Assembly (NCBI RefSeq): GCF_000016985.1
Contig: NC_009633.1
Span: 2,895,539-2,959,538 of the forward strand
Direction: 5' to 3'
From: Alkaliphilus metalliredigens QYMF
GTDB taxonomy: Bacteria > Bacillota > Clostridia > Peptostreptococcales > Natronincolaceae
DNA: 64,000 bases
The position numbers and the translations under genes were made by a program. Shown here one piece after another: positions 44,186 through 51,691 of this stretch. The notes beneath the pieces were generated by a model. That model saw only the letters and a list, made by a program, of their open reading frames with translations, was not told the origin of the DNA and did not search any database. Numbering within the stretch: the first letter of the stretch is position 1; every line of letters starts with the position of its first letter.

Positions 44186-46210
44186 CTACTTTAATTTTTC
44201 TTGTATCTCATGGATTGGTATGGGTCTACTCATTAAGTAGCCTTGTCCACTTTCACAAGAATGCTCCTTCAAGAATGCTAACTGTTCTTCTGTTTCAATC
44301 CCTTCTGCCACTACTTTATAATTTAAATCTTTAGCTAAATATAAAATAGATTTAATGATAAAGGATTCCTTACTGTTCTCCTTGATGCTCTTCACAAAAC
44401 TTCTATCCAATTTAACAATATCAATGGGTAAAACATTTAAATAAACTAATGATGAATAGCCTGTTCCAAAGTCATCTAAAGCAATTTTCAAACCTAATTT
44501 CTTGAGTTGCTCTAATCTTTCAATTGCAAACTTAACATTTGATATAATAGCAGTTTCTGTAATTTCAATTGTTATTTTAGAATGGTCTATATCAAAGGAA
44601 CTGATGATCGCTTCCACTTCTTGAAAGTTCACGTTGCTCATCAATGTTTTGCTAGAGAGGTTAATGGCGATCTCTAAATTTATCAATCCTTGTTTTTCAA
44701 ACTTTTCTTTTTGAGTTAAGGCTGTTTTGATAACCCACTTTTCTATCTCATATATTTGACCAGTTTCTTCAGCTAGAGGAATAAATTTTGCTGGAGAAAT
44801 AAACCCTTTTTTAGTATGAATCCATCTTATTAATACCTCTAATCCACTTATTTCTCCCGTATTTAGATTATACTGTGGCTGATAGTAAAGCACCAGTTCC
44901 TCTTTTTCAATGGCATGCTGAAGATGATTGGTCATCTCTATATGCTCTGCATTACTTTCTAGTATTTCATCCACATAAAACAACAGTCTTCCCTTACCTT
45001 CTCTTTTAGCTTTACTCATTGCTAAGTCAGCATTTCTAAATAAGATGGTATGATCAAGACCATCTTGGGGATACAATGAAACCCCCATACTGAAGGACAC
45101 AAAAAATTTATGATGATTACTTGTCCATGTTTTCCCTAGGCTATGTATTATCTCTCCTAGTAAGTGCTCCACATGCTCCTTTGAGGTTGGTTCCTTCAGT
45201 AATATTGCAAATTCGTCACTAATGAGTCGTCCAACTATATGTGGTTTTTCAACCGCGTTGTGTAGCTTATCTGCTATATATTTTAGAAATTCATCTCCAA
45301 TAGAATAACCTAAAGTATTATTAATGTATTTAAAATTATTAAAATCTAAGTGAATTAAGGCAAAGGATACATCTTCTTCTATTAGTCTGGTTACTTCCAC
45401 TTCTAAGAATGTCCTTTTATACAATCCAGTCAGTGAATCATAGAATGCTGCATTTTTCAATTCCTCTTCCAATGCCTTTCGATTGGTAATATCCACCCCG
45501 ATGGAAAGAATTTCAGTGGGTTCACAATGTTCTTGATGCTGTAATACACTACTATTCCAAAGGAGATCCACTCTCTTTTGATCACTGGCAATGAACTCAA
45601 GCTCATGATTCTTAAATTGTTTGCTATTTTTCACTTTTTTAAAAATATTCTCCATTAAATTTTCATCCGCTTCAGTGTTCAAAAGATCCCACCATTTCTT
45701 GTCATAGAGCTCATCCTGACTATATCCAAATATGGATTCTCCAAAGGGATTCAGACTTTTAATTTTCCCTTCTTCATCCCAAATTCCAATAACCACTGGT
45801 GCTTCTCTAATAATACTTTCAGTCAAATCCTTTTGATACAATAGTTCTTGTTCCGTCGCCACCAGTTCCTCGTAAGTTGCCTGTAATTCTTCAAAGGCTT
45901 CTTTTATTTTCATGATCGATTTTCCAAATAATACCGAACGCTTTTCCACTAATACATAAATTAGTATCATGGTCACCAAGACATATAGCCAACCTTTATA
46001 TGTCTGAATTTGTCTATAAATCGTGATATTTTGTACCATTATATAAAGTATCTTATCGGATAAGGCGATCCACAGTAATCCAAAGATTCCATAGATACCT
46101 GTAATGAACATGGCTTCTTTATGGGGATTGATTTGATGGTTTTTATCAAGATATTGATTAATATTTTCTTCATTTTTATGTAGTTGGTTTGTTTTGCTTT
46201 TAAAAAGCAT
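44186..46210 (-). CDS. Membrane PAS-GGDEF-EAL protein with degenerate GGDEF motif
   Basis: The product of about 674 residues has two membrane segments in its first 95 residues, a coiled linker, a PAS domain (about 120-245), a GGDEF domain (about 255-415) and an EAL domain (about 425-674). The GGDEF site reads LISDEF, so diguanylate cyclase activity is unlikely; such domains often bind GTP to tune the partner. The EAL domain has EVLIRW (ExLxR intact), ITETAI, DDFGTGYSS, KLDRSFV and AEGIETEEQ, so c-di-GMP phosphodiesterase activity is plausible. The start at 46210 follows AAGGGGAT; an earlier ATG at 46243 has no site. Confidence 0.9.
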   Translation of the reverse strand: MLFKSKTNQLHKNEENINQYLDKNHQINPHKEAMFITGIYGIFGLLWIALSDKILYIMVQNITIYRQIQTYKGWLYVLVTMILIYVLVEKRSVLFGKSIMKIKEAFEELQATYEELVATEQELLYQKDLTESIIREAPVVIGIWDEEGKIKSLNPFGESIFGYSQDELYDKKWWDLLNTEADENLMENIFKKVKNSKQFKNHELEFIASDQKRVDLLWNSSVLQHQEHCEPTEILSIGVDITNRKALEEELKNAAFYDSLTGLYKRTFLEVEVTRLIEEDVSFALIHLDFNNFKYINNTLGYSIGDEFLKYIADKLHNAVEKPHIVGRLISDEFAILLKEPTSKEHVEHLLGEIIHSLGKTWTSNHHKFFVSFSMGVSLYPQDGLDHTILFRNADLAMSKAKREGKGRLLFYVDEILESNAEHIEMTNHLQHAIEKEELVLYYQPQYNLNTGEISGLEVLIRWIHTKKGFISPAKFIPLAEETGQIYEIEKWVIKTALTQKEKFEKQGLINLEIAINLSSKTLMSNVNFQEVEAIISSFDIDHSKITIEITETAIISNVKFAIERLEQLKKLGLKIALDDFGTGYSSLVYLNVLPIDIVKLDRSFVKSIKENSKESFIIKSILYLAKDLNYKVVAEGIETEEQLAFLKEHSCESGQGYLMSRPIPIHEIQEKLK

Positions 46211-46720
46211 CGCATCATCCCCTTTTTTTGTTTCTCCATGCAATACAGCTTTATAAAGATCTTATCTTCGGGGCATAAGATTCTCCACCGCATTCTCCAA
46301 TATCTCAGTTCGGTAAAACCAGTAAATTGAGTTTCCTGTATTTTGAGAAAGTCGTCTCTTCCTTACCACTATTTACGATAAATGAATTGTAAAGCTATTA
46401 CTATAGATTCGTCAATTATCAGCAACTTTCCTTCTTTTTCCGTATTTTTTTTCCTGAAATCACATATTATTTTCTCCATTTTGGGTTTTCGCCCCCTTAA
46501 TCAATACAAACTTCCCTTTCATCAATGATACCCTAAATATATGGTGAATCACTTCAAATAAGAAAGGATTTAATTGAATATGAATGCTGCTTTCCTACAC
46601 TTAAATCATTAAAAGTTATTTACTCTTTTAAATTCGGGTATACATGACTTATAATACTGAAAATCGATGTTTAATAATCAATCCATCTATTTCATTAAAT
46701 CCTCTAAAAAATCTAGTTAA
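46211..46720. other. Long non-coding region upstream of the PAS-GGDEF-EAL gene
   Basis: About 500 bases contain no supported gene. On the minus strand the leader near the gene has a 7-bp hairpin ATCTTAT/ATAAGAT (46260-46282) with a purine-rich stretch GGAGAATGCGGTGGAGAATC just upstream. I checked it for the c-di-GMP-I core found at 49.3 kb and did not find it. The remainder is AT-rich with no clear element. Confidence 0.4.
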
Positions 46721-47022: not shown

Positions 47023-49173
47023 TTATTCATCATACTCTTCAAATAAAAGCTTATGTAAAAAGTTATCGTTATATATTTTTTCCACCTCTTTTACCTCCAA
47101 TGGCCTGCTAAATAGATAACCTTGGATGTAGTTGCTCCTTGCTGCTTTCAGTTGTATATATTGAGCTTCCTCTTCTATGCCTTCTGCCACTACATCTAGA
47201 TTTAGACTATGGGCAAGGGCAATGATTCCACCTATCATCTTGAAATTTTTTGTTTCCAGATATTTATCACTTAAGGATTTATCCAACTTTATTTTATCTA
47301 CTGGTAAAAATGTTAAATAACTAAGAGAAGAGTACCCAGTACCAAAATCATCTAGGGCCATTTTCACCCCTAGTGCTTTAATTTGATTTACAAATTCAAT
47401 TGTCTTCTCAATTTTTTCTAAAAAGAGACCCTCTGTAATTTCTATCTCAAGATAGTTAGCCTCCACATGATTTTCCTTGAGCTTAGCTTGTAAAAAATCA
47501 ATATAACTTAAATCATTCAGTTGCTTTGCTGAAAAATTAATTGCTATTGGCTTTAGGGATAATTCCTTCTTTTTCCATAGGGCTACTTGCTTGATGACTG
47601 CTTCCGTTACCCATCTACCAATTTCTATAATCATTCCCGTTTCTTCAGCTACTGGAATAAACTGTGCTGGAGATAGATTGCTTTTTTTAAGTCTTAAAAG
47701 AGCCTCAAATCCCACAATTTCTCCTGTATAGGTATCAATTTGTGGTTGGTATAATAATTTAAACCCATCATCTTTTAATGCTATCCTTAATTTATTTTCC
47801 ACTTCAATCTTTTCATTTAAATTGGTTAGCATTTCCTCATTAAAAAACATATAATTGTTTTTCCCAAAACCCTTAACACCATACATCGCCATGTCAGCAT
47901 TCATGATTAGCTGACTTACACTATTGCTATTTGACGGGTATAGAGCAATTCCAATACTGCAGGTTAGATAAACTTCATCATCCTCCACCAACAACTTGTT
48001 ACTAAATAAATCAATCACTTTTCTTGCGTAATTCTCAATTTTAAGAATATCCTCTTCTTCTTTTATAAGAATAAGAAACTCGTCTCCACCAAGTCTTGAT
48101 ACAACAAGATTTTCACCTTTTATATGCAATAGGGCTTCAGTCACTTTTTTTAACACCTTATCTCCATATACATGACCTAATGTGTCATTGATTTCCTTGA
48201 AATTATCAAGGTCTAATAGCATAATCGCCCCGGAACGATTATGAGTAAATTCCAGCTCTAGCTTTTCTACAAGCATTCTTCTATTAGGTAAATTTGTTAG
48301 GTCATCATGATAAGCAATATGCTCAATATATGCTTCCTGCTTTTTTAGCTGATAAAAATAGTGATTGATCTCATCAAGCATGGCATTAATAGAAGAAAAC
48401 AACCCTAAAAAGGTGTCTCTCTCCGGTGATGGAAGCCGATAGCCTGCATTCTTTTCTACATCAATTTGACGAATACTTTGATCTAATTGATCTACTGGCT
48501 TAATTACATTTCTATGTTGTGCCCACAAAAACAACAAAACCATAATCATCGTTATCATGCTAAAGCTTAGAAATATAAAGTAAATAGAACCATACACATT
48601 TTTCATGGACAGACCGATTCCAAGTATTCCTATGATTTCACCATCATCAAAGAGCGGAACTGTTATTTCCAATACGTTAGCATTTAGGTCTTCAGAATAC
48701 CACTCAGTTGCTATTGTTTCTCCCTTTAAAGTGCTTAGGTATTCCAGATCATCGGTATATACGATGCCAATGTCTCTAATATCTGAATCAGCTATGGCCT
48801 TTAACTCCTTGTCTACAATAAGGGCATAGGCAATATTATCTTCTTTAGCTAAGCTTTCAACAATTTCCTGGTAGTTAAATTCTTGTTTTAGGATTTCATT
48901 GTTAATGACTGGATTTCTTGCTTGTTTAAGCCCATCTTCTAGTAAATCATTAATTATCTTCATAGAGCTAATCTCATTATTAATTTTTCTAGTGGTTAAA
49001 TTAGCCAAATTGATTCCGCCTTGTTTCATTTCATCTAACAGTAAATTTTTACTGATATAATAGCTCGTCACACTGACAGTTAAAATAGCCAACACCCCAA
49101 TGAATAATGGCAGGTATACTAATTTGTACTTATTAACAATGTGGTTTTTCACTTTATGCTTTGACTTTGGCAT
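47023..49173 (-). CDS. Membrane GGDEF-EAL protein with extracytoplasmic sensor, under c-di-GMP riboswitch control
   Basis: The 716-residue protein has a membrane segment at about 18-42, an extracytoplasmic sensor (about 43-195) ending VPLFDDGEIIGILGIGLSM as in Cache-type sensors, a second membrane segment (196-218), a HAMP-like linker, GGDEF (about 285-445) and EAL (about 455-716). The cyclase site SRLGGDEF (359-366) is intact, but the RxxD inhibitory site normally just upstream is absent (the place reads GENL). The EAL motifs FEALLRL (489-495), DDFGTGYSS, KIKLDKS and VAEGIEEE are intact. It may make or break c-di-GMP. GAGGGGAGG is the ribosome site; a c-di-GMP-I riboswitch and terminator lie in the leader. 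Confidence 0.94.
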   Translation of the reverse strand: MPKSKHKVKNHIVNKYKLVYLPLFIGVLAILTVSVTSYYISKNLLLDEMKQGGINLANLTTRKINNEISSMKIINDLLEDGLKQARNPVINNEILKQEFNYQEIVESLAKEDNIAYALIVDKELKAIADSDIRDIGIVYTDDLEYLSTLKGETIATEWYSEDLNANVLEITVPLFDDGEIIGILGIGLSMKNVYGSIYFIFLSFSMITMIMVLLFLWAQHRNVIKPVDQLDQSIRQIDVEKNAGYRLPSPERDTFLGLFSSINAMLDEINHYFYQLKKQEAYIEHIAYHDDLTNLPNRRMLVEKLELEFTHNRSGAIMLLDLDNFKEINDTLGHVYGDKVLKKVTEALLHIKGENLVVSRLGGDEFLILIKEEEDILKIENYARKVIDLFSNKLLVEDDEVYLTCSIGIALYPSNSNSVSQLIMNADMAMYGVKGFGKNNYMFFNEEMLTNLNEKIEVENKLRIALKDDGFKLLYQPQIDTYTGEIVGFEALLRLKKSNLSPAQFIPVAEETGMIIEIGRWVTEAVIKQVALWKKKELSLKPIAINFSAKQLNDLSYIDFLQAKLKENHVEANYLEIEITEGLFLEKIEKTIEFVNQIKALGVKMALDDFGTGYSSLSYLTFLPVDKIKLDKSLSDKYLETKNFKMIGGIIALAHSLNLDVVAEGIEEEAQYIQLKAARSNYIQGYLFSRPLEVKEVEKIYNDNFLHKLLFEEYDE

Positions 49174-49204: not shown

Positions 49205-49240
49205 TTCAAAAAAATAAGTGCCTTAAAGGGCACCTATTTT
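49205..49240 (-). terminator. Regulated terminator in the riboswitch expression platform
   Basis: On the minus strand AAAATAGGTGCC and GGCACTTATTTT pair (11 Watson-Crick plus one G-U) around the loop CTTTAA, followed by a run of T residues. It lies between the c-di-GMP aptamer and the start codon at 49173, 32 bases from it. Its loop and distal arm are complementary to sequence next to the aptamer P1 stem, giving an alternative antiterminator fold. Confidence 0.88.
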
Positions 49241-49254
49241 GACAAAATATAACT

Positions 49255-49338
49255 TTAATAGGCAACCCGACTATCCTATCGTCAAACGACTTAGATTCGT
49301 GGCTTTGCGTCACCATCTTTCGATGGTTTTGCCTTTAC
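49255..49338 (-). ncRNA. Cyclic-di-GMP-I (GEMM-I) riboswitch aptamer
   Basis: The minus strand shows the class I c-di-GMP core. P1 is made by GGCAA (near 49333) and TTGCC (near 49261). The stem-loop CCATCGAAAGATGG carries a GAAA tetraloop. The highly conserved GTGACGCAAAGCCAC joins the two halves, followed by CTAAGTCG, a second stem-loop and ATAGGATAGTCGGGTTGCC. The GACGCAAAGCC and CGGGTTGCC strings are the signature of this class. The aptamer lies about 85 bases upstream of the GGDEF-EAL start with a terminator between, so it should act on transcription. Confidence 0.93.
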
Positions 49339-49604: not shown

Positions 49605-50168
49605 ATGGGGGGGATACCTTTGGAGGTCTCTGATGAAAAGCTAATTAAGCTTTGCCAAGATCAAAACATGGAGGGGTTTGATCTATTATATACGAAATAC
49701 CAAAGCTATATCTATCGACTATGCTACAATTATACCCACTCTAAAGAAGATTCCTTAGATTTATTACAGGAGGTATACATAAAAATCTATCAATCCATCC
49801 CTCGCTTTGAAAAAGGCCATCCGCTATCTCCTTGGATTAAGAAGATTACAATTAATACCTGTCATAATTTCGCTAGGGCTAAAAAACCAACCCCATTGCC
49901 TTTAGATCCCACATTAAGCATTCCATCTGCTGACAACGTTGAATTAGCATTATCCTATAAAAGCACTGAAAAACTACTGAAGACCAGTATCAGTCAATTG
50001 CCCCATGAAATAAAGTCGGTGATTCTTCTTAGGCATGTAGAAGCCATGAGCTATCAGGAGATTAGCCAATGTTTGTCCATACCCATAGGAACTGTCAAGA
50101 CCCATTTATTTCGAGGAAGAAAACACTTAAAAGATCAGTTAAAAAAAGAAGGGGTTTGGGAGGTGTAG
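49605..50168 (+). CDS. ECF-type RNA polymerase sigma factor
   Basis: The protein has a sigma region 2 (FDLLYTKYQSYIYRLCYNYTHSKEDSLDLLQEVYIKIYQ, about residues 24-62) and region 4 (QLPHEIKSVILLRHVEAMSYQEISQCLSIPIGTVKTHLFRGRKHL, about 135-178) with no regions 1 or 3. That is the ECF (group 4) layout. The ATG at 49605 follows AAGGT; a TTG at 49620 follows GGGGGG and is an equally good start. Upstream TGAAAC (49558-49563) and CGTGTA resemble an ECF promoter, but the spacing is short, so autoregulation is only a possibility. The next gene encodes its likely anti-sigma factor. Confidence 0.93.
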   Translation: MGGIPLEVSDEKLIKLCQDQNMEGFDLLYTKYQSYIYRLCYNYTHSKEDSLDLLQEVYIKIYQSIPRFEKGHPLSPWIKKITINTCHNFARAKKPTPLPLDPTLSIPSADNVELALSYKSTEKLLKTSISQLPHEIKSVILLRHVEAMSYQEISQCLSIPIGTVKTHLFRGRKHLKDQLKKEGVWEV

Positions 50169-50170
50169 AA

Positions 50171-50626
50171 TTGAACTGTTCATTTGATAAAAGCTTACTT
50201 CAAGAGTCTCTAGAAAATACAATTGAACCATTGGAGTCCATTATACTAGAGGAGCATCTGAAGGTATGTCATGGCTGCCGAAGGGATTTAATGGAACTGA
50301 AACTCCTTCTTTGGGAACTTGAGGAGATGTCTTCCGTTGACTTACCTCCCGAGGCACTTGATGTGAAAGCCCGTGTATTACATGATTTTAAAAATCGCCA
50401 ACCATCTTCCGAAGATACTCATCCCTTCGGTATAAAGGATTTTGTTGACATTCAAAGTAACATACTCAGTAGTGCTACCCTCTTTCTAAGGTTTATTCCA
50501 GGAGCTAAGGTAGCTTCTAAGACGTCTAAGTCCACGATAAAAAAGGCATCTTCTTTGCTGGAAAACTTCATTACAGGATCCTTTAAGATAAGGTCCAAGA
50601 GTTCCTTGCTAAGGAATGGCCTATGA
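50171..50626 (+). CDS. Zinc-binding anti-sigma factor (ZAS type)
   Basis: The 151-residue product contains HLKVCHGC near residue 30, the H-x3-C-x2-C motif of zinc-binding anti-sigma proteins, within a helical N-terminal domain. There is no clear transmembrane segment, so the protein appears to be soluble or peripheral, unlike many relatives. The start is TTG at 50171, five bases after GGAGGTG, immediately past the sigma-factor stop; a longer frame overlapping the sigma gene is rejected. It ends in an ATGA overlap with the next gene. It should hold the upstream sigma factor inactive. Confidence 0.85.
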   Translation: MNCSFDKSLLQESLENTIEPLESIILEEHLKVCHGCRRDLMELKLLLWELEEMSSVDLPPEALDVKARVLHDFKNRQPSSEDTHPFGIKDFVDIQSNILSSATLFLRFIPGAKVASKTSKSTIKKASSLLENFITGSFKIRSKSSLLRNGL

Positions 50627-51324
50627 TTTTATTAGCGATACTTCGTTATCTACTCCTATTTTTATTGGCAATACTACTATTAATCCTAATTATCCCAGTG
50701 GATTATCATTTAATGGCTTCAAAGGACCTAGTTGTCACGTTTAAAGGTCATATCGGCTGGTTTTGGCACTTAGTAAAGGTGGATTTCACCATCATCAACA
50801 ACAGTCCTAAAGCGATAAGAATTAAACTTCTTGGTCTTCCTATTTCCATCCACACCAGTGGAGAAGAAAGGAAGACATACAAGAAAAAACAAGAATCAAA
50901 AAAACCGAAGAAGAAAAAGACAACAAAGAAAAAAGTAAAATATAAGAATAAGTTCCCATTAGCATGGGAACATGTTACCAGAGAGTTATTAGATGTTATT
51001 TTCTTGGCTATCAAAAGGGTGCTACATCATTTGAAACCCAAAAAGTTCAGACTTGAGGGAGTCTATGGATTTGATGATCCTTACTATACCGGTATCATAC
51101 TGGCCATTACAAGTTCCCTACAGCCCTTATTTAATGACTCTCCCCTAGAGATAACCCCCTCTTTTGGGGAAACAAAGCTTGAAGGAGAGTTAGAAGTCCA
51201 TGGTAGAATCATTGTTATTTTGTTTCTATGGATTGTGTTGCAACTTACTTTATCTAAGCCCATTAGAAAGATTCTAAAAATATTATTTATTAAAGAGAAG
51301 GAGGAAAAAAAACATGTCAACTAA
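50623..51324 (+). CDS. DUF2953 membrane protein (YtfI-like)
   Basis: The 233-residue protein has an N-terminal membrane segment (about 3-25), a central lysine-rich stretch (about 84-112, nearly all Lys/Thr/Gln), and a region PKKFRLEGVYGFDDPYYTGIILAITSSLQPLF typical of DUF2953. The C-terminal hydrophobic segment is at about 205-215. In Bacillus the related ytfI is next to ytfJ, as here. The start overlaps the anti-sigma stop (ATGA), so translation is coupled. Function is not known but the association with GerW/YtfJ suggests a sporulation role. Confidence 0.85.
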   Translation: MILLAILRYLLLFLLAILLLILIIPVDYHLMASKDLVVTFKGHIGWFWHLVKVDFTIINNSPKAIRIKLLGLPISIHTSGEERKTYKKKQESKKPKKKKTTKKKVKYKNKFPLAWEHVTRELLDVIFLAIKRVLHHLKPKKFRLEGVYGFDDPYYTGIILAITSSLQPLFNDSPLEITPSFGETKLEGELEVHGRIIVILFLWIVLQLTLSKPIRKILKILFIKEKEEKKHVN

Positions 51325-51691
51325 CTTTTCAGAAAATGCAGGTCAATTATTCGAAAAGCTTGAAAAATTCTTTACATCTAAAACCGTTGTAGGAGAGCCT
51401 ATTACCGTAGGAAGTGTTACCCTCATACCCATGGTAGATATCTCATTTGGTCTCGGTACAGGATCAGGGGATGGAACCGATGAAAAAGGAAATAAAGGAG
51501 TTGGAGGTGGTGGTGGCGTTGGTGCCAAGGCTACACCAACAGCCATAATCGTCATCAAAAATGAAGAAGTTCAAGTCCTCCCAATCAGTCAAAGAGCTGG
51601 TATGGAAAAGCTTTTAGAAATGGTACCAGACATCGTTGCTAAGGTAAATTTAAATAAGGAAACAACACAAGAGGCTCCCAAAGAAGAGTAA
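51314..51691 (+). CDS. ytfJ: GerW-family spore protein (YtfJ)
   Basis: The 125-residue protein contains VVGEPITVGSVTLIPMVDISFGLGTGSG, a glycine-rich loop and GVGAKATPTAIIVIKNEEVQVLPI, which are the signature of the GerW/YtfJ family. Members are forespore proteins needed for germination in Bacillus. GGAGG precedes the ATG, which overlaps the ytfI-like gene by 11 bases. It is the last gene of a sigma/anti-sigma/ytfI/ytfJ operon and is followed by a strong terminator. Confidence 0.93.
   Translation: MSTNFSENAGQLFEKLEKFFTSKTVVGEPITVGSVTLIPMVDISFGLGTGSGDGTDEKGNKGVGGGGGVGAKATPTAIIVIKNEEVQVLPISQRAGMEKLLEMVPDIVAKVNLNKETTQEAPKEE

Follow-up and report, generated by a model that had tools for sequence, protein, structure and literature searches.

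The window, that is, the whole 64-kb stretch of DNA that was analysed, contains a gene for a GGDEF-EAL protein whose leader carries a c-di-GMP-I riboswitch aptamer followed by an intrinsic terminator (Table 1). In the Rfam search c-di-GMP-I (RF01051) is the sole RNA family found in the window. With 84.3 bits (E = 3.6e-15) the match lies well above the gathering score of 35, and it is full-length, covering model positions 1–87 of 87 without truncation. A sequence-only reading of this DNA had claimed a complete aptamer core and had proposed a covariance-model search for GEMM-I as a check; the search bears the claim out. The bounds given there, 49205–49338, locate the element properly but cut off five nucleotides of its 5′ end, the true start being 49343. 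From the aptamer through the terminator the leader folds with a z-score of −3.77, and none of 200 shuffled sequences folds as well.

Table 1. Features of the controlled gene and its leader (positions in the window)
Feature	Position	Strand	Basis
Candidate promoter TTGAAA-17-TAGTAT with TG extension	49458-49430	minus	consensus scan; matches not above chance number
Perfect 11-bp stem–loop between candidate promoter and aptamer	49413-49385	minus	fold −14.1 kcal/mol, z −5.67, 0/200 shuffles
c-di-GMP-I (GEMM-I) riboswitch aptamer, complete	49343-49258	minus	Rfam RF01051
Switching strand UGCCUAU, aptamer 3′ end; predicted partner of the terminator 5′ arm without ligand	49264-49258	minus	stepwise folding
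Intrinsic terminator with a stem of 11-12 bp (one G-U pair), a loop of 6 nt, and a U-run	49240-49208	minus	leader MFE fold; terminator finder
Terminator 5′-arm segment AUAGGUG, favoured antiterminator partner	49237-49231	minus	stepwise folding
Antiterminator partner of the sequence-only reading, CUUUAAGGCA (loop + 3′ arm)	49228-49219	minus	complementary to UGCC + UUAAAG (49264-49261, 49258-49253)
Ribosome-binding region GGGGAGG in short hairpin GGGG-AGGCA-CCCC just before ATG	49186-49174	minus	fold −6.8 kcal/mol
Controlled gene, 716 aa, transmembrane/sCache_3_2-GGDEF-EAL	47023-49173	minus	Pfam; motif alignment

By homology to Vc2 the predicted ligand contacts are G 49333 (G20), A 49306 (A47), and C 49262 (C92). 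The placements of G20 and C92 follow from the Rfam alignment and the Vc2 numbering, and the mapping agrees with that of Bc1, where G11 is the equivalent of G20 (PMC11218506). The predicted pocket letters G, A, and C are those of a c-di-GMP binder, and by every available test, as far as sequence can tell, the RNA belongs to RF01051. We expect that the aptamer binds c-di-GMP. The letters TGCC near the 3′ end of the aptamer had been assigned to the 3′ side of P1, which applies to the last C only. In the Rfam structure the U closes P3 (pair A40–U80), the first C (49262) is the equivalent of Vc2 C92, and just the last C lies in P1.

The terminator has an energy of −13.0 kcal/mol according to the terminator finder. 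It starts 18 nt past the end of the aptamer and uses no aptamer sequence in its stem; the ATG of the gene follows 34 nt past the terminator. We folded the transcript stepwise while it grows from the aptamer start. From position 112 on, once the 5′ arm of the terminator has been transcribed, UGCCUAU pairs with AUAGGUG. This helix has seven pairs, two of them G-U, and the mean probability of its four central pairs is 0.89–0.95 at transcript positions 112–124. The terminator, whose probability is low before, replaces this antiterminator only after the 3′ arm emerges. The preference for the 5′ arm is unchanged at 25, 37, and 45 °C and with the Andronescu parameters; the Langdon parameters give the same numbers as the latter and hence are not counted as independent.

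The sequence-only reading had also arrived at an OFF switch, but with a different antiterminator in which UGCC and UUAAAG pair with GGCA in the 3′ arm and CUUUAA in the loop. On paper all ten pairs form just as proposed, a 2-nt bulge (TA) included; the duplex energy is −10.1, and the CUUUAA loop and the U-run are present. Complementarity within the window alone does not separate the two antiterminators. Each beats all but 0.35% of shuffled partners, and among the terminators of other switches 3.8% do as well for the 5′ arm plus loop versus 2.9% for the loop plus 3′ arm. As this test separated nothing, we turned to the stepwise folds and to a test across many related switches. In the window switch UGCC:GGCA and UUAAAG:CUUUAA stay at or below 0.03 per helix at every transcript length (at or below 0.06 by a broader measure), because the partner is transcribed at the same time as the 3′ arm of the terminator, when UGCC is already held by the 5′ arm. 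For the group test we took 106 distinct switches with downstream terminators. Here the aptamer 3′ strand fits the 5′ arm of its own terminator better than in 5000 of 5000 permutations (z = −5.3). The loop plus 3′ arm is intermediate (7/5000 permutations), and for the 3′ arm alone the group gives no signal (z = −0.3; 1939/5000 permutations). In stepwise folding, antiterminators of the 5′-arm type exceed a probability of 0.5 in 41 of 108 switches and those of the loop/3′-arm type in 14 of 108. Both geometries occur, the 5′ arm being the usual one. The sequence-only reading had thus picked the right strand and a set of pairs that can be drawn, but probably not the right partner for it, and we regard an OFF switch built on the loop and 3′ arm as unlikely at this locus. 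Either antiterminator would take up the ligand-contacting C, so that ligand and antiterminator directly exclude each other.

The element is best read as an OFF switch. The terminator lies downstream and separate, and the strand that the ligand is predicted to hold would otherwise disable it, which supports the OFF direction and the terminator platform proposed before. We suggest that the switch works in the following steps. Without ligand, UGCCUAU including the ligand-contacting C would pair with AUAGGUG as soon as the 5′ arm is transcribed. This would delay the terminator hairpin and the polymerase could read through. With c-di-GMP bound, the same nucleotides would be held in the base of P3, the ligand pocket, and P1, leaving the 5′ arm free; the terminator would then form and the gene would be off. 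Taken as a whole, a transcriptional c-di-GMP-I OFF riboswitch with a 5′-arm antiterminator, in front of a GGDEF-EAL gene whose product more likely is a net phosphodiesterase, appears to us probable. ON-type platforms, in which the aptamer 3′ strand is part of the terminator stem, do occur, one of them in the same genome (L083, G000:C1:3839670). However, a ligand that raises expression is hard to reconcile with a terminator that stands clear of the aptamer. We have rejected an ON switch on this anatomy and consider it very improbable.

Another possibility is a leader in which the terminator nearly always forms and the ligand hardly matters. At full length the terminator fold has −39.7 kcal/mol versus −31.7 kcal/mol for the 5′-arm antiterminator and −30.2 kcal/mol for the antiterminator of the sequence-only reading. 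As the terminator is ahead by about 8 and 9.5 kcal/mol, respectively, an ON state has to come from kinetics, and the gene could be off most of the time. A kinetic ON state has likewise been modelled for Cd1 (PMC9262584), and Bc1 of B. thuringiensis was reported to be locked OFF regardless of c-di-GMP (PMC11218506). Against a dead leader stands the conservation of the aptamer and of the complementarity despite differing platform sequences. In the orthologue from another genus (G019, 64% identity) the riboswitch is found at the same place, and TGCCAAA fits TTTGGCA at the foot of the terminator. In the paralogue of the own genome (L075) GGTTGCC fits GGCAACC and the platform differs. The OFF logic thus appears to be kept in both although the letters differ, and we judge a leaky or dead leader to be improbable.

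The OFF switch suggested here would work like the Cd1/Cdi1_3 OFF riboswitch of the C. difficile flgB operon, whose OFF function has been demonstrated (PMC3649979). Cd1 has the same aptamer class, and its terminator lies entirely past the aptamer. There, too, an antiterminator is in competition with the terminator, and the terminator fold coexists with the ligand-bound aptamer (PMC9262584). Cd1 differs in that it controls flagellar genes and no c-di-GMP enzyme and has a longer leader. The cGAMP riboswitch of pilM (GEMM-Ib) has a homologous aptamer fold (PMC9262584), but it is an ON switch and its aptamer strand is used by the terminator.

The controlled protein consists of a partial sCache_3_2 sensor (residues 97–197), a GGDEF domain (287–439), and an EAL domain (460–691) according to Pfam. 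Motif alignment shows that the GGDEF signature and the metal-site residues are intact (SRLGGDEF, LDLDNFKEIND) and that the RxxD inhibitory site is absent, GENL being found at this position. Both points had been made from the sequence before. The protein had been called a c-di-GMP enzyme on its GGDEF part, and a complete phosphodiesterase domain was overlooked. The catalytic set E(AL), N, E, DD, K, E, Q of the EAL domain is present throughout (FEALLR, INFS, EIEITE, DDFGTGYSS, KIKLD, AEGIE, QGYLFSRP). The nearest solved structure to the GGDEF-EAL part is the "Motility regulator" MorA (PDB 4rnh, 4rnf; E = 4.8e-87 for 4rnh), which has a different sensor. As the EAL domain is intact, the sign of the feedback is unreadable from GGDEF alone. 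Most tandem GGDEF-EAL proteins of C. difficile act as phosphodiesterases (PMC6200980). For the window enzyme we think net phosphodiesterase activity somewhat more probable than net cyclase activity.

The extracellular sensor is shortened. The window protein lacks about 92–96 sensor residues, at about residues 88–95, which are found in every aligned homologue (L097, L013, L014, and L045–L047), including the riboswitch-controlled orthologue L097 of G019. The reading frame is intact; the loss is therefore a clean in-frame one. The same sensor is found at full length in a riboswitch-controlled chemotaxis receptor of this genome (L076, G000:C1:974342, plus strand). A single input domain thus serves the enzyme as well as the receptor, with the same RNA control on each.

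To see which genes such switches control, we surveyed 171 c-di-GMP-I riboswitches, all 91 found in 20 genomes of the family and 80 of the best-scoring ones from elsewhere in the order. High-scoring riboswitches are over-represented in this sample, and "OFF-type" describes anatomy and is no measurement. Enzymes of c-di-GMP metabolism follow 26 of the 171 switches (15%), with 14 genes for GGDEF and/or EAL proteins and 12 for HD-GYP proteins. A downstream terminator, that is, the OFF-type, was found for 25 of these 26 (12/12 HD-GYP, 13/14 GGDEF/EAL), while no terminator was detected for the remaining one, which precedes a GGDEF gene. The OFF-type label is weak for one switch, G006:C58:22122, whose only terminator-like hairpins lie inside an open reading frame starting at +14. 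The ON-type overlap was seen in none of the 26. The other 145 switches include seven ON-type calls; in at least four of these the aptamer strand makes up a perfect hairpin. Judged from this anatomy, the OFF platform serves enzymes that make c-di-GMP and enzymes that degrade it. It precedes each of the 12 HD-GYP genes as well as the gene of the SGDQF paralogue, and OFF control of degrading-type enzymes is therefore normal in the order.

OFF control of a cyclase is negative feedback, and OFF control of a phosphodiesterase is positive feedback. For the window gene negative feedback would require a net diguanylate cyclase, with the riboswitch as substitute for the missing I-site; the sequence-only reading had indeed suggested that RNA-level feedback may replace allosteric feedback. 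The intact GGDEF signature and metal site make a net cyclase possible, and GGDEF-only genes with OFF-type platforms exist. The complete EAL domain argues against it, and so does the distribution of RxxD. The site is missing in all aligned GGDEF-EAL homologues, including three from Clostridium that came from the genome scan, have no c-di-GMP riboswitch, and served as control, yet it is kept as RKGD or RKND in five riboswitch-controlled GGDEF-only proteins. The two forms of feedback thus do not trade off. Loss of the I-site, in these alignments, does not seem to go with gain of a riboswitch, and the proposed replacement is not supported. We consider a homeostatic circuit around a net cyclase rather doubtful.

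If instead the enzyme is a net phosphodiesterase, high c-di-GMP may shut off its own destroyer, and the loop would be positive and latch-like, not homeostatic. More generally, the OFF switches which the order carries on degrading (EAL, HD-GYP) and on synthesising enzymes could form double-negative latches at the RNA level with the window gene among them; this we put forward tentatively, with a little less than even confidence. If true, the window gene would be an RNA latch, in which the degrading enzyme is no longer made once c-di-GMP is high. A testable question arises: does the same RNA OFF switch serve homeostasis on cyclases and memory on phosphodiesterases? The window locus, the G019 orthologue, and the SGDQF-EAL-PilZ paralogue of the own genome make up a compact test set.

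Positive feedback of this sign is known for E. coli PdeL, where a phosphodiesterase gene is repressed at high c-di-GMP (PMC5052742). There, a protein transcription factor and not an RNA brings the repression about. In C. difficile the expression of the GGDEF-EAL phosphodiesterase gene CD630_07570 goes down 5.1-fold at raised c-di-GMP (PMC6200980); the part of the paper that we refer to does not state a riboswitch as the cause. c-di-GMP riboswitches on c-di-GMP metabolic genes have been called rare (PMC6366702), and GEMM RNAs ahead of diguanylate cyclase and phosphodiesterase genes have been on record since the beginning (review PMC12564702). In the literature covered, with most subscription papers outside its scope, we found no report of the locus or of a demonstrated c-di-GMP-I riboswitch loop on a phosphodiesterase gene. 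The kind of riboswitch is already known, and what makes the locus worthwhile is whether its loop is positive or negative.

Several further elements lie in the leader. The perfect 11-bp stem–loop, placed close to where the transcript is predicted to begin, may shield the 5′ end of the mRNA. The hairpin at the ribosome-binding region was considered as a second layer of control and dropped, its fold being no better than that of shuffled sequences (z = 0.46). We note that GGCACC in this hairpin contains the letters GGCAC with which the 3′ arm of the terminator opens; the GGGG/CCCC pairing and this repeat could affect translation.

Around the locus, a second GGDEF-EAL gene, with PAS, follows about 800 bases downstream on the same strand (44186–46216) without a riboswitch of its own. 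A divergent cluster at 49605–51691 on the plus strand encodes a sigma-70-like factor, a zf-HC2-containing protein, a DUF2953 protein, and a YtfJ-like sporulation protein. On its single contig of 4.93 Mb the genome carries 11 c-di-GMP-I riboswitches, mostly ahead of chemotaxis receptors. One of them is L075 (G000:C1:3306785, minus strand) with a near-identical aptamer and a different OFF-type platform, which precedes a PAS-GGDEF-EAL-PilZ protein with a degenerate GGDEF motif (SGDQF). This protein is probably a phosphodiesterase that senses c-di-GMP at both the RNA and the protein level. In the ON-type switch L083/L011 (minus strand) the aptamer strand GACTGCCATA itself forms the terminator stem, and no clear gene was found within about 1.2 kb.

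Among the relatives, tandem c-di-GMP-I aptamers occur two or three in a row (L143, G006:C24:209538-209903; L133; L139; L123), many of them without a detectable intrinsic terminator. The aptamers also vary at the G20 position (model position 11), where 32 of the 171 sampled have A instead of G, including L079 (G000:C1:480071) and the G019 orthologue L097. In GEMM-I RNAs a change of G20 to A has been associated with a different dinucleotide specificity. It is possible that the aptamers of the order with A at this position are cGAMP sensors or promiscuous sensors.
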